DNA of 64,000 nucleotides, taken from Bacteroidales bacterium (lineage in GTDB: Bacteria; Bacteroidota; Bacteroidia; Bacteroidales; UBA12077). Both the position numbers and the translations under genes were made by a program. Location of the stretch: NCBI GenBank assembly GCA_016342685.1, contig JAEINU010000010.1:1-64000 (forward strand). Direction: 5' to 3'. Positions 204 to 5,661 of this stretch are shown in pieces. The number at the start of each line of letters is the position of its first letter. Positions within the stretch are counted from its first letter, which is position 1. The notes below the pieces were generated by a model. The model was not told where the DNA came from. It saw nothing but the letters and a program-made list of their open reading frames with translations, and made no database searches.

Positions 204-1637
204 TTGAGAGAATTTAAAAGAATTCTAAAAATATCGTTCATTATTTTTTTATTGATAATAGGCTTGAATACTTGTAGAGAACAAGAAAAGGAATCGTTTG
301 TTAAGCTGAATACTCTTGAGAAAGTAAAGAAAAGAGGTAGTTTAATTGCTGTAATGGACTTTAATTCAACTAATTATTTTATTTACCGAGGCGAGCCGAT
401 GGGGTATCAATATGAATTATTGAAATTGTTGGCAGAACATTTAGATGTAAAACTTGAGGTAGTTCCTGAAAATGATGTAGATAAGAACTTCGAAATGTTA
501 AGAACAAATAAGTGTGATATTATTGCAATTAATTTGGCTATAACAAAAGAACGATCTCAAATTATTGATTATACAAAACCGCACAGTCAAACCCATCAAG
601 TATTAGTTCAACGTAAGCCCGAAAATTGGAAAGTATTAAGGAAATCTGAATTGGAAGCGCAACTTATAAGGAATCAATTGGAATTGGCAAAAAAGGTTGT
701 ATACGTGCAAAAAGGAACTTCATATGCTCAAAGAATTAAAAATCTATCAGATGAAATTGGCGATAGTATTATTATAATTGAAAAGGCTGATTTGGAAGTG
801 GAAGAATTAATCGAACTTGTTGCAAATGGTGAGATTGATTACACTATTACGGATGAAAATGTTGCGTTGGTTAATCAAATTTATTACCCAAACCTTGACG
901 TAAAAACAGCAGTAAGTTTCCCGCAAAATCTCGCATGGGGTTTAAGGAAGGGTGATGATGAGTTTAAAACGGAAGTTGATAAATGGTTATTGGAGTTTAA
1001 GAAAACTAAAAAATATTCTTTAATTTATAATAAGTATTTTAAAAATCGTCGTTCGGTTAAGATTATAGAGAGTGATTTCTATGCACAAAATAGTGGAAAA
1101 GTTTCCGTTTATGATGATTATATTAAAAAGTATAGTGATGAGATAGATTGGGATTGGAGACTACTTGCATCATTAATATATCAGGAATCGAGATTTAAGC
1201 CAAATGTAAAATCGTGGGCAGGAGCATACGGACTAATGCAATTAATGCCTACAACGGCAAAAAGGTTCGGTGTATCAAAGAAATCACAGCCAGAAAAGCA
1301 TATAAAAGCGGGTGTTGATTTTATTAAATGGCTAGATGACAGATTCGTGAATAGAGGAATTAGTGATGATGAAGAGAAAATTAAATTTATTTTAGCTTCA
1401 TATAATGTGGGTTTAGGACATATTCTTGATGCCAGGAGATTAGCTGAAAAGAATGGAAAGGACCCTGATGTTTGGGAAAATAATGTGGATGAGTATATTC
1501 TAAAGAAATCAAATCCTAAGTATTATAAAGACCCGGTTGTAAAATATGGATATTGTCGTGGATCTGAAACTTATAATTATGTATATCAGATATTAGATAG
1601 ATACGAACATTACAAAAATATTATACCAGAAACTTAG
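204..1637 (+). CDS. mltF: Membrane-bound lytic transglycosylase, MltF type
   Basis: The 477-residue protein has the MltF architecture: a hydrophobic N-terminus with a possible lipobox at Cys24 (LNTC, a weak match because Thr precedes Cys), a periplasmic solute-binding type 3 domain at about residues 45-275, and an SLT lysozyme-like domain at about 305-450. The SLT part carries YQESRF with Glu328 as the expected catalytic acid, followed by AGAYGLMQLMPTTA. Family members cleave peptidoglycan to 1,6-anhydromuropeptides. The start is TTG at 204, and no ATG is available upstream of the signal segment. The gene stands alone after the rRNA operon and overlaps the convergent Nudix gene by 17 bp. Confidence 0.9.
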   Translation: MREFKRILKISFIIFLLIIGLNTCREQEKESFVKLNTLEKVKKRGSLIAVMDFNSTNYFIYRGEPMGYQYELLKLLAEHLDVKLEVVPENDVDKNFEMLRTNKCDIIAINLAITKERSQIIDYTKPHSQTHQVLVQRKPENWKVLRKSELEAQLIRNQLELAKKVVYVQKGTSYAQRIKNLSDEIGDSIIIIEKADLEVEELIELVANGEIDYTITDENVALVNQIYYPNLDVKTAVSFPQNLAWGLRKGDDEFKTEVDKWLLEFKKTKKYSLIYNKYFKNRRSVKIIESDFYAQNSGKVSVYDDYIKKYSDEIDWDWRLLASLIYQESRFKPNVKSWAGAYGLMQLMPTTAKRFGVSKKSQPEKHIKAGVDFIKWLDDRFVNRGISDDEEKIKFILASYNVGLGHILDARRLAEKNGKDPDVWENNVDEYILKKSNPKYYKDPVVKYGYCRGSETYNYVYQILDRYEHYKNIIPET

Positions 1638-2253
1638 CGTTATTTTTTTTTACGACCTCTAGGAACTCTGATAACATCATTGCTGTTGCGCCCCATATTG
1701 TAATATTATTAGGATTATAAATTGGAGCTAAGAAGGAGATATCTCCATATGAGAATTCTTTTGTGGTGCAGTTTGTAGGATCTAGTAAATCTTTAAGTTT
1801 TATTTCTAACACCTTTTCAACTTCTACAGGGTCAGCTTTAAATTGTGGTGTAGTTTTGTAAATGCCCATAATAGGAGATACCATAAAATTACTTACAGGA
1901 ATATGCAAGGGAGTTAACTTTCCTAAAATTTTGACTTTACTGGGATTTATTCCTATTTCTTCATGGCACTCGCGAAGGGCGGTGTCAATTATGTTTTTAT
2001 CAAAATCTTCAGCTTTTCCGCCAGGGAAAGATATTTGACCACTATGTGGACCGTTGTATTCTGTTCTTTGAATAAATGCTAGGTATAGTTCTTGATTTTT
2101 TGGAAAAAGAAGAATTAACACTCCTGCTTTTCGAGTTTTATTTGTTGGCTTAAAATAATCTCGAATACCTGGAGACATCTTAACATGTGCTTTTTCTCCA
2201 GGTAAATCCTTTTTTAATTCTTCTTTTAAATTTTTAAAAAAATCAGTAAACAT
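1621..2253 (-). CDS. Nudix hydrolase, CoA pyrophosphatase type
   Basis: The 210-residue protein contains the CoA-pyrophosphatase signature upstream of the Nudix box (IQRTEYNGPHSGQISFPGG) and a Nudix box ending in TALRECHEEIGI. The first Glu of the classical box is replaced, as is common in the NudL/PCD1 branch. The family hydrolyses CoA or CoA derivatives to 3'-phospho-ADP and phosphopantetheine with Mg or Mn. It is the last gene of the gatE-gatD-nudix unit: its ATG follows the gatD stop with no gap (TAAATG), so translation is probably coupled. Substrate choice is inferred from the motif only. Confidence 0.85.
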   Translation of the reverse strand: MFTDFFKNLKEELKKDLPGEKAHVKMSPGIRDYFKPTNKTRKAGVLILLFPKNQELYLAFIQRTEYNGPHSGQISFPGGKAEDFDKNIIDTALRECHEEIGINPSKVKILGKLTPLHIPVSNFMVSPIMGIYKTTPQFKADPVEVEKVLEIKLKDLLDPTNCTTKEFSYGDISFLAPIYNPNNITIWGATAMMLSEFLEVVKKNNAKFLV

Positions 2254-3639
2254 TTATTTTCTAAACTTTTTAATAAAATCTTCAACTTCAGGAACACCAC
2301 CTTGATATATAAGATAACCATTATATGGCTCTCTTGTTGTAATTTCATCATTAATTGGCGTTAGCATTATTTTCTTTATTTCTTCAGGATCTTCAGTTTG
2401 TCCCAAAGCCCATCCTAATTTTATGTATGCTACTTCAGGTAGCATATTTCCTGAAGGAATAATTCCTTTCGCCATCATATCTCTTCCTGTATCATAAACA
2501 AACATATGGACATAACCCCAAAGTGTCTGTAATGTCATATACATAACTACGCCTTTTTTTGTTGCTCTTTCAATAGCTGGGTATAATTCTTTATTTACAT
2601 GGCCCAAACCTGTTCCAACAAAAACAATTCCTTTATAGCCGTTGTCGACTAATGTATCAATGATATCTGGCTTCATTCCCGGATAATAATATAACATTGT
2701 AACTTTATCAGAGAAATAAGGGAGAATATCTACATTTCTATCTTTTCGTCGTTGCTTATAATCTTTTTTAATTGGAGTGATTTTATCTCTATTTACTGTG
2801 GCTAATGGGGTGTCTCCAATTGTGCGAAATGTAGATCTGTAAGATGAATGCATTTTTCGTACTCTAGTACCCTTATGTAATAATCCGTAGTCGTCTGATG
2901 TAGGTCCAAACATACAAACCATTACTTCAGCAATATCTGAATCGCCAGCTGTTTTCATTGCATGCATTAAATTTAGTGCGGCATCAGAACTCGGACGATC
3001 TGAAGATCTTTGAGAACCTACCAAAACAATTGGAATTGGAGAGTTTTGTACCATAAATGTTAATGCAGCACCTGTATGGTGTAAAGTGTCTGTTCCATGT
3101 CCAATAACAATTCCATCAATACCATTTTCAATTTCCTTACCAATGGCAATTGCTAATGCTTTATATTGATCTGGCCCCATATTTTCACTAAATACAGCAA
3201 ATATTTTTTCTGTGGTTAGATTACAGATATCTGCTAGCTCAGGAACAGCACCATAAAGTTCTCCCGGAGAGAAAGCGGGAATAACTGCACCTGTTCTATA
3301 ATCTAATCTAGATGCTATTGTTCCTCCGGTACCAAATAATTTCACATTAGGGAGACCTTCTGTTGTCGGAAATTCTTTTTCTGGAATTTTATAATTGGCT
3401 TTTTGATAGCCAGTTTCCTTCATGTCTTTTATTGTCCCAACATCGATCCCAATGTTATAGCCTGTAATAATTTTTAATACAATATGAAAATCATCATCAT
3501 TTTCGGAACGGGGAAGTACCGTACCTTCGAAATTTCCACGTGTAGTTTCAATACTTGCTTGCCCCCAAACTCGTACATTATATTTTTTTAGTATTTCTAA
3601 TGCTTTGCCTTTATATCCTTGAAAAATATCTTCGCTCAT
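2254..3639 (-). CDS. gatD: Glu-tRNA(Gln) amidotransferase subunit D (archaeal type)
   Basis: The 461-residue protein matches GatD rather than a plain L-asparaginase. A ~95-residue N-terminal domain (SH3-like in GatD family members) precedes the asparaginase fold. The catalytic set is complete: GTGGTIAS with Thr107, GHGTDT with Thr183 and Asp184, and Lys262 in TRVRKMHSS. In the GatDE complex this subunit frees ammonia from glutamine (or asparagine) and passes it to GatE, which amidates Glu-tRNA(Gln). It lies 30 bp downstream of gatE on the same strand. GatDE is regarded as the archaeal enzyme, so its presence in a Bacteroidota genome is notable. Base composition looks like its neighbours, so any transfer is not recent. 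Confidence 0.93.
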   Translation of the reverse strand: MSEDIFQGYKGKALEILKKYNVRVWGQASIETTRGNFEGTVLPRSENDDDFHIVLKIITGYNIGIDVGTIKDMKETGYQKANYKIPEKEFPTTEGLPNVKLFGTGGTIASRLDYRTGAVIPAFSPGELYGAVPELADICNLTTEKIFAVFSENMGPDQYKALAIAIGKEIENGIDGIVIGHGTDTLHHTGAALTFMVQNSPIPIVLVGSQRSSDRPSSDAALNLMHAMKTAGDSDIAEVMVCMFGPTSDDYGLLHKGTRVRKMHSSYRSTFRTIGDTPLATVNRDKITPIKKDYKQRRKDRNVDILPYFSDKVTMLYYYPGMKPDIIDTLVDNGYKGIVFVGTGLGHVNKELYPAIERATKKGVVMYMTLQTLWGYVHMFVYDTGRDMMAKGIIPSGNMLPEVAYIKLGWALGQTEDPEEIKKIMLTPINDEITTREPYNGYLIYQGGVPEVEDFIKKFRK

Positions 3640-3669
3640 TTTCTTAATTTTTACTATTTAACACTGAAT

Positions 3670-5661
3670 TTAATTTTGATCTATTGCTTTTGCTAAATCA
3701 TTTGGGGCAATATTACCAATTGCTGTTTTTTGCAATTCGCCCATTATCCAATGTTTTGCTACTTGATCATTTTTAGAAGTTTTAATTTCCTTAAATTTTT
3801 GTTTTAAGAATGAAATCTTTGATAATATTTCTTCTTTAGGAAGAGATTTGAAATTTATACTTGTAAGAATCGAATCAAAATCCATTTTCGGGTATTGAAA
3901 AAATACAGGAAGCATTCTTTTGCTTAACTGGATCTCTAATTTTTCATCGATTAAATATTTAAATAGATCATAGATCTTGCAATAATCGAAAACATCTGAT
4001 GATGTATAATGACCTTCAACAAACTTTAACTTGTGACCAATAAATGTTCCAATAAACTTTGGATTGATTCTTAATTCTTTAACTATTTTTTCGATTAAAG
4101 GATATAAATTATTTCGGAAGATAAATGTAAATGTATCTTCAGGTACATTCCATTTTTTAAGTTGATTATATCTTTCGATTACATCGCTTGGTACATTTTC
4201 ACTCAGTTTATCAATGTATTCATTTTCTAATGGGATTGGGGCAGAGTCTGTATCGGGATACATCCTATCTGCCCCTGGAAGAACTCTTTCGAAAATTGTA
4301 GTTCCATCGGTAAAAGATTTTCGAGTTTCTTGCGGAACTCCTTCGAATGCCATTAGACATCGTTCTTCGATTGTTTCTAATGCTGTTTTAATATCTTCAT
4401 CTGGAGCCCATATTATAATTTGAGCATCATCTTCACTTGCATTAAAAAGCTCTTTAATCTTGGTGTAATTATCTTCAATAATTTTTGGTTCAAATTCTTC
4501 TGAATGAACCATGTTTGGTTTTTCTAAACAGGCTATTACTTTTAAACGATCTGCTATTTCATTTGCAAAAATCTTTCCTGGTTGAGTGAAGTGAGATAAA
4601 ATACCTTTGAAGTTTGGTAGATTTACTGCAATAATTCTGTATTTGTCTATTAATCCATTCGTAATAGGTTCATATTTTAAATCGAAATCACGATAGTCAA
4701 TTTCCTGATGTTGAATTTTCCAATTGTCAGTATCCTTTGCTCTATCATTAAGTTTTTTCTTAATGTTTAGTAATGCCCATTGTCTGAATCCTTCAATATG
4801 AGATAATTCAGGAATAAGTTTATTGTACGAAACTCCTTTTATCTCAACTCGGGTTCCTCCTTTACAACTTACATTCACATCTTCGCGACCAGCACCACTT
4901 CCTACTCTCACCCTTCCTGTACTTCTGTTTAAGAAACGAATGTATTCGGCAGCTTCTTTTAACTCATCTGGAGTGTACATTTCGGGATAAGTAACCGTTT
5001 CAATTAACGGCATTCCTAATCGATCTGTTTTATAAATTCTCTGATGACGAATATCTGAAATTTCACGACAAGAATCTTCTTCGATACTCAACTGAATCAA
5101 TCTAACTTTTTTATTTTTTAATGGAATTTCGCCCTCGACTCCTAAAATTGCAGTTCTTTGAAATCCGGCAGGAATGCTTCCATCTAAATACTGTTTTCTT
5201 GTAATATGAACCTCACCAACAATATTTAATTTACATAATAGAGAAATTTCAAGTGCATATCCTAAAGCCTCACGATCGATTTTGAATGGTGGTGTATCGT
5301 CGATTTCGTATGTACATGCAGTTTCGTTATTTAATCTATAAACAATTTCTTTTCGCGTTCTATATTCCATTAATGCTGTTCCATCATATTCTCCAAGCTC
5401 ACTAAGTGTAGGACGCATATGACGAATTACTTCAGCATTAAAATCATCGTGTTTATGAAAAATTCCAGCAGGACAATGACAAAATAACTTTTCTTTAGTT
5501 TTTAATTGTTGATGAACCTCTAAGCCTGACATGAAACCAATACGCTCGTAATCGGCTTTTTTAGCTTTTTTTCTTGGAATGTATCCAACTTCCTTAAGCG
5601 TTTGCTCGTAGTTTTGTTTTGGATTAAAATCTTTGGTTTCCGGGGATTTATCTTTTTTCAT
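3670..5661 (-). CDS. gatE: Glu-tRNA(Gln) amidotransferase subunit E (archaeal type)
   Basis: The 663-residue protein is a GatB-family kinase/transamidase subunit of the GatE branch. It shows the cradle start MSGLEVHQQL at 44-53, a Cys-x-Cys pair at 61/63 likely to bind zinc, and the family motif around TTIFERVLPGADRMYPDTD at 454-472. An insertion at about 335-425 (NLPNFKGILSHFTQPG) resembles the AspRS-type GAD domain, which distinguishes GatE from GatB. A helical YqeY-like tail occupies about residues 500-663 and would bind the tRNA elbow. GatE phosphorylates Glu-tRNA(Gln) and amidates it using ammonia from GatD. It is the first gene of the operon. An imperfect -7 element (AATATTTG on the minus strand, 5699-5706) lies about 40 bases upstream. 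Confidence 0.93.
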   Translation of the reverse strand: MKKDKSPETKDFNPKQNYEQTLKEVGYIPRKKAKKADYERIGFMSGLEVHQQLKTKEKLFCHCPAGIFHKHDDFNAEVIRHMRPTLSELGEYDGTALMEYRTRKEIVYRLNNETACTYEIDDTPPFKIDREALGYALEISLLCKLNIVGEVHITRKQYLDGSIPAGFQRTAILGVEGEIPLKNKKVRLIQLSIEEDSCREISDIRHQRIYKTDRLGMPLIETVTYPEMYTPDELKEAAEYIRFLNRSTGRVRVGSGAGREDVNVSCKGGTRVEIKGVSYNKLIPELSHIEGFRQWALLNIKKKLNDRAKDTDNWKIQHQEIDYRDFDLKYEPITNGLIDKYRIIAVNLPNFKGILSHFTQPGKIFANEIADRLKVIACLEKPNMVHSEEFEPKIIEDNYTKIKELFNASEDDAQIIIWAPDEDIKTALETIEERCLMAFEGVPQETRKSFTDGTTIFERVLPGADRMYPDTDSAPIPLENEYIDKLSENVPSDVIERYNQLKKWNVPEDTFTFIFRNNLYPLIEKIVKELRINPKFIGTFIGHKLKFVEGHYTSSDVFDYCKIYDLFKYLIDEKLEIQLSKRMLPVFFQYPKMDFDSILTSINFKSLPKEEILSKISFLKQKFKEIKTSKNDQVAKHWIMGELQKTAIGNIAPNDLAKAIDQN

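Follow-up and report, generated by a model that had tools for sequence, protein, structure and literature searches.

The GatD subunit of GatDE amidotransferases accepts Asn as well as Gln, and in archaea the tail domain of the GatE subunit reads the tRNA elbow. Bacterial GatCAB catalyses the same type of reaction and its GatB subunit has the catalytic domain of GatE, but it requires GatA and GatC in addition. According to a 2022 review (PMC9499178), GatDE is today confined to archaea, where it reads the D-loop and the A1:U72 pair of tRNA-Gln; its arguments about LUCA and the absence of GlnRS from archaea build on how GatDE and archaeal tRNA-Gln co-evolved. Two other papers describe tRNA recognition by archaeal GatDE as shape complementarity at the elbow (PMC4810234) and word the distribution as "only in archaea missing AsnRS" (PMC8007984). 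For Bacteroidetes, we read a table in PMC3927822 as giving 12 of 14 with GlnRS and no gatCAB. A search of the open literature for GatDE described in bacteria found no such paper. These genes presumably already receive their names from automated annotation with equivalog models, the biology not being thereby described.

The Bacteroidales stretch analysed here (the window, 64,000 nucleotides) is part of a 117.6 kb contig in a genome of 4.77 Mb (54 contigs, listed as 100% complete). An earlier note on this DNA had reported gatE and gatD in tandem with a 30 bp gap, and both ORFs were found as described, on the minus strand with gatE first. The gatE gene (3670 to 5661) is an intact ORF of 663 aa that passes its equivalog models, and gatD (2254 to 3639) is an intact ORF of 461 aa with a GatD_N domain followed by an asparaginase-type, ammonia-releasing domain. 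A Nudix hydrolase ORF (1621 to 2253, minus strand; Pfam NUDIX) starts immediately behind the gatD stop, with no base between; it is perhaps co-transcribed with the pair and is not part of the enzyme. The contig neighbours of the pair are bacterial genes, and comparison with six of them bore out the claim that its base usage is that of its surroundings: GC is 0.32 in gatE and 0.35 in gatD (neighbours 0.31–0.34), codon rank correlation is 0.91 and 0.88, respectively (neighbours 0.77–0.91), and GC3 is 0.20–0.21, slightly under the 0.21–0.27 of the neighbours.

Against the NCBIfam GatD equivalogs, GatD scores 499.8 bits (NF003217, cut-off 310) and 496.6 bits (TIGR02153, cut-off 324). Type I asparaginases have the same catalytic fold, and GatD also passes their broader subfamily model TIGR00519, but with a lower score (376.9 bits, cut-off 260.5); GatD differs from them by its additional GatD_N domain and its partner GatE. 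It falls below cut-off on the type II asparaginase model and on the two plain asparaginase equivalogs listed, and Pfam GatD_N, Asparaginase and Asparaginase_C are all over cut-off. Its best PDB sequence matches are the two solved archaeal GatD proteins (381–385 bits versus 139 bits for plain asparaginases), and alignment gives 44–47% identity to archaeal GatD. Thr107, Thr183, Asp184 and Lys262, the catalytic set listed in the earlier note, are indeed present: they align with T101, T177, D178 and K254 of Methanothermobacter GatD, which we take to be catalytic, and are invariant in all 104 aligned GatD rows.

GatE scores 472.5 bits on NF003107 (cut-off 456) and 408.1 bits on TIGR00134 (cut-off 319.55), and stays under cut-off on all GatB models listed, the best two giving 120.4 bits (cut-off 338) and 104.4 bits (cut-off 314.8). 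Pfam GatB_N, which marks the GatB/GatE catalytic domain, is over cut-off, and a PDB sequence search ranks the two solved archaeal complexes first, well above GatB; identity to archaeal GatE is 32% in alignment. Residues E48, H50, E194, E195 and E221 align with Methanothermobacter E13, H15, E157, E158 and E184, presumably catalytic residues and metal ligands, and are identical in 128 of 128 aligned rows (D196 in 127). The GAD insertion and YqeY-like tail proposed for GatE stand as to order and place, but both have diverged to under the Pfam cut-offs: GAD matches at 337–423 (E 0.0067), a region that aligns through with archaeal GatE, and GatB_Yqey at 524–661 (E 0.0073), its expected position, where the AlphaFold2 model is helical. 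The best fold matches of this model (pLDDT 84.3) are 1zq1_C and 2d6f, which serve as a consistency check only because both structures were perhaps in the AlphaFold2 training data.

At its N-terminus, GatE is about 30 residues longer than the solved archaeal proteins, a feature absent from the earlier note. Counted from the ORF start, 45 residues precede the first GatE motif in the window protein, the median being 39 for the 93 Bacteroidales-like rows and 24 for the other 27 (four rows without the exact motif were left out), compared to 10 and 17 by chain numbering in the two solved archaeal chains; the extension is conserved in bacterial GatE. The archaeal enzymes of Pyrococcus abyssi (1ZQ1) and Methanothermobacter thermautotrophicus (2D6F) share both subunits, domain order, GatD and GatE catalytic residues and predicted GatE fold with the window pair, which differs from them by the extra N-terminal residues, the diverged tail and a bacterial host with GlnRS and U1-A72 tRNA-Gln. 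Judged by family membership, the pair is a genuine and complete bacterial GatDE.

The earlier note had considered either a replaced or a second, parallel route to Gln-tRNA(Gln) and had suggested searching the full genome for glnS, gltX and gatCAB. This search recovered GlnRS and a bacterial GluRS and neither GatA nor GatB. The GlnRS is full length and scores 780.9 bits against an equivalog cut-off of 425.8; AspRS and AsnRS are also encoded in the genome, as is a third class II synthetase taken for LysRS by eye. GatA was not found in the genome, its sole amidase reaching 192.3 bits in the genome search and 216.8 bits as a whole protein (cut-off 481.1), and neither was GatB, the single GatB/GatE-type match being the window GatE (GatC was outside this search). 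Thus, GatDE has not replaced GlnRS, and since AspRS and AsnRS are both present, a role in Asn-tRNA formation is not obviously needed. A second, parallel route beside GlnRS would fit this gene content. By eye, the sole amidase-signature protein (L004:1429-3009; L and G numbers are our labels for loci and genomes) begins with what looks like a lipoprotein signal; its matches are amidases of the PRK08137 type and not GatA.

In the host genome, 37 tRNA genes were found by scoring 150 of 413 candidates, so some are perhaps missed; one of them is a tRNA-Gln (anticodon UUG), and BLAST with it returned one copy. A search of 36 genomes for tRNA-Gln gave no match in 11 and 35 matches in the other 25, from which 32 genes were read. 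All 32 carry U1-A72; the A1:U72 pair of the archaeal GatDE substrate, a feature of the substrate and not of the protein family, is absent from every one. Bacterial GatE would therefore have changed its recognition or use another substrate. In GluRS, no alignment column separated 22 GatE-positive from 15 GatE-negative members of the order beyond shuffled labels, the best column value being reached in 19 of 200 label shuffles. We also considered the position of T. thermophilus GluRS residue 358, which we assume to be a marker site for non-discriminating GluRS. It is Arg in 62 of 62 sequences and is uninformative because Arg also occurs in G345 and G371, which lack a GlnRS match.

How widespread is the pair? 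Of 59 relatives, 33 have a GatE over cut-off: 18 of 20 genomes of the genus (window genome included; G002 has a fragment and G004 none), 3 of 5 from a second genus in the family, and 12 of 34 from outside the family but within the order. In an even sample of the order (at least 95% completeness), 99 of 246 genomes are over the GatE cut-off and 147 under. Presence is patchy even inside genera: in g3, for example, G025 (99% complete) is without GatE and G516 and G582 have it, as expected of a useful but dispensable gene pair. A sample of 392 genomes of the phylum yielded 31 over cut-off, namely the window genome plus 30 that belong to other classes; besides the window genome, no same-class or same-order genome in this sample was over the cut-off. 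The searches of relatives, order and phylum together gave 147 non-overlapping genomes with GatE.

A scan of public genomes confirmed at least 568 of 584 pattern stretches as relatives, archaea and GatB possibly included. Among the best 80 of these, 43 are titled Bacteroidales and none is titled archaeal. Records titled as isolates among the best 80 include Perlabentimonas gracilis, Labilibaculum euxinus and Marinifilum flexuosum, which carry both genes; the bins include Saprospiraceae, Cloacimonadota, Zixibacteria, Aminicenantes, Calditrichota, Acidobacteriota, Planctomycetota and Archangium, single bins being perhaps mis-binned. GatE is present as well in G641 and G579, each listed as a single contig. 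With genus, order and isolates carrying GatE and composition matching the neighbours, the pair is native to its host, neither recent nor a contaminant, as the earlier note had argued. Mobile carriage found no place: 18 plasmid records contained one GatE-type match, on a haloarchaeal replicon, the other 17 being short matches at 23–27% identity, several annotated gatB; five phage records were all short matches at 23–25% identity, and the viral contigs searched held no GatE.

We then surveyed the company of GatE in 80 genomes, 64 GatE-positive (the G002 fragment counted) and 16 GatE-negative. GlnRS is over cut-off in 74, comprising 58 of 64 GatE-positive and 16 of 16 GatE-negative genomes; the six without it are all GatE-positive. 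Its absence from G013, which is also without a GluRS match, and from G309, where the GluRS match is short only, looks like assembly gaps. G371 and G345 (99%) seem truly to be without GlnRS, and both have GatA and a GatB-like frame. Two drafts have GatE and no GlnRS or GatA match, G033 (88% complete), with GatB-like pieces, and G058 (96% complete). A GlnRS-less Bacteroidales lineage, as G058 might represent, was rejected, both other genomes of its family examined having GlnRS. GatA is over cut-off in 24 of the 80; apart from G037, all of these are among the 30 GatE-positive genomes from other classes, 23 of which have it. From these counts, GlnRS or GatA is present in 61 of 64 GatE-positive genomes, the rest being the drafts G013, G033 and G058, and GatDE was shown to be the sole route in no well-assembled genome among those examined.

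In a GatE tree of 128 rows (125 bacterial and 3 archaeal, support by SH-aLRT only), bacterial and archaeal rows split at support 100. The window GatE groups with the other members of its genus in a clade made up mostly of Bacteroidales, which also takes rows titled Planctomycetota, Archangium, Chlorobiota and Saprospiraceae. Cloacimonadota lie around this clade, and Aminicenantes, Zixibacteria, Calditrichota and Acidobacteriota further out and poorly separated; of the rows from other classes, 27 fall together in a second bacterial clade. The first 60 lines of the GatD tree (105 rows; 102 once rows under 350 aa are dropped) show the same broad split. The pair is not peculiar to the window operon and belongs to a widespread bacterial clade. 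Because archaeal rows are few (3 GatE, 2 GatD) and their branches long, root and transfer direction are unsafe; an ancient transfer is a possible origin of the bacterial pair, its direction left unset by the trees. Two loci depart from these groupings. L048 (G214), from another class, has a Bacteroidales-like GatE (64% identical to that of the window), likely a transfer between classes; four other genomes sharing its family code f70 (G190, G415, G242 and G352) carry the other bacterial type. The GatE of L046 (G403) is bacterial but divergent (35% identity to the window protein), and its long branch lies in neither of the two bacterial groups; the GatD of this genome, by contrast, groups with GatD rows of the family to which the genome belongs (code f68).

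Across 101 loci, distances in GatE correlate with those in GatD (r = 0.913), and the genes are in tandem at 103 of 125 loci. Among the rest, the sequence ends after gatE at 11, the genes are not in tandem although there is room at 9, and a shadow ORF hid gatE at 2; the synteny counts omit these two loci, and the tree includes them again. In the 79 loci counted, no gene neighbour is conserved outside close relatives; common only to these are a Nudix gene next after gatD (10 of 79) and a LolC-like permease (11 of 79). Against nine close relatives, dN is 0.04–0.13 and dS ranges from 1.1 to saturated, similar to one GlnRS pair taken for comparison (dN 0.077, dS 2.15). The pair is under strong purifying selection.

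What is the function of GatDE in a cell with GlnRS? The simplest reading of the sequences is that the bacterial pair would keep the known reaction. We lean towards the view that bacteria have a GatDE clade of their own in which amidation of Glu-tRNA(Gln) persists, giving the cell, next to GlnRS, a second or rescue route that it can do without; activity, substrate and role are inferred here. GatD would free ammonia from Gln or Asn, and GatE would use ATP to activate the glutamate on Glu-tRNA(Gln) and amidate it to Gln-tRNA(Gln). The rescue may consist in converting Glu-tRNA(Gln) that arises by misacylation or, as we hypothesise, in keeping up the supply of Gln-tRNA(Gln) once free glutamine drops below what GlnRS needs. 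Family scores, kept residues, co-varying distances, tandem order, low dN and the company of GlnRS count for such a route; the U1-A72 tRNA-Gln, the lack of a sign of non-discriminating GluRS, the diverged tail and the finding of no well-assembled genome with GatDE as its sole route count against it. Alternatively, GatE could have been repurposed to amidate another misacylated tRNA or a different acyl substrate once GlnRS took over Gln-tRNA(Gln). GlnRS in 58 of 64 GatE-positive genomes, the bacterial type of tRNA-Gln, the diverged tail and the conserved N-terminal extension would agree with repurposing, but we hold it rather unlikely because the catalytic residues and all domains are kept in order, GatE best matches archaeal GatE, well over GatB, and conserved neighbourhoods contain no candidate substrate gene.

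Could GatDE instead be the main route, with GlnRS minor or inactive? The drafts G058 and G033 point that way, as do G371 and G345, although the latter two have GatA and a GatB-like frame. However, the host GlnRS is full length with an equivalog score, G058 has relatives with GlnRS, 147 of 246 order members lack GatE over cut-off and all 16 GatE-negative genomes tested have GlnRS, making a main route very improbable. The patchy presence in the order might also suggest a decaying relic without function, but dN far under dS, intact residues and the kept tandem make decay extremely unlikely. Nothing was found in favour of archaeal contamination or a chimeric contig, and the chance of either is negligible given the length and bacterial neighbours of the contig, the congeners, isolates and one-contig genomes that carry the pair or its GatE, the matching composition and the bacterial clade in the tree.

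Returning to the parallel route beside GlnRS, we tentatively extend it to several bacterial phyla, which would run GatDE beside GlnRS and sometimes GatCAB, with a GatE re-adapted to U1-A72 tRNA-Gln; at low glutamine, Glu and Asn-derived ammonia may be their source for charging tRNA-Gln. If the parallel route is real, GatDE is not confined to one domain of life. A wide bacterial GatDE clade beside GlnRS and bacterial tRNA-Gln contradicts the archaea-only distribution given in PMC9499178 and puts the co-evolution argument made there to test. Wide carriage beside an ordinary GlnRS makes the role of GatDE in bacteria a testable question, and the three isolates that carry the pair open it to experiment.

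Several features of tRNA-Gln genes were observed along the way. A tRNA-Gln like that of the host (L164:1500-1573 and others) occurs in 15 of 16 GatE-positive and 3 of 12 GatE-negative genomes of the order, a link that relatedness may explain. From other classes, only GatE-positive genomes were compared, and 7 of 8 have such a tRNA-Gln. A UUG and a CUG isoacceptor occur together in several relatives; in the window genome, UUG is the only one among the tRNAs found. In G048, G029 and G030 (L253, L269 and L247), a tRNA-Gln(CUG) gene directly adjoins the GlnRS gene.
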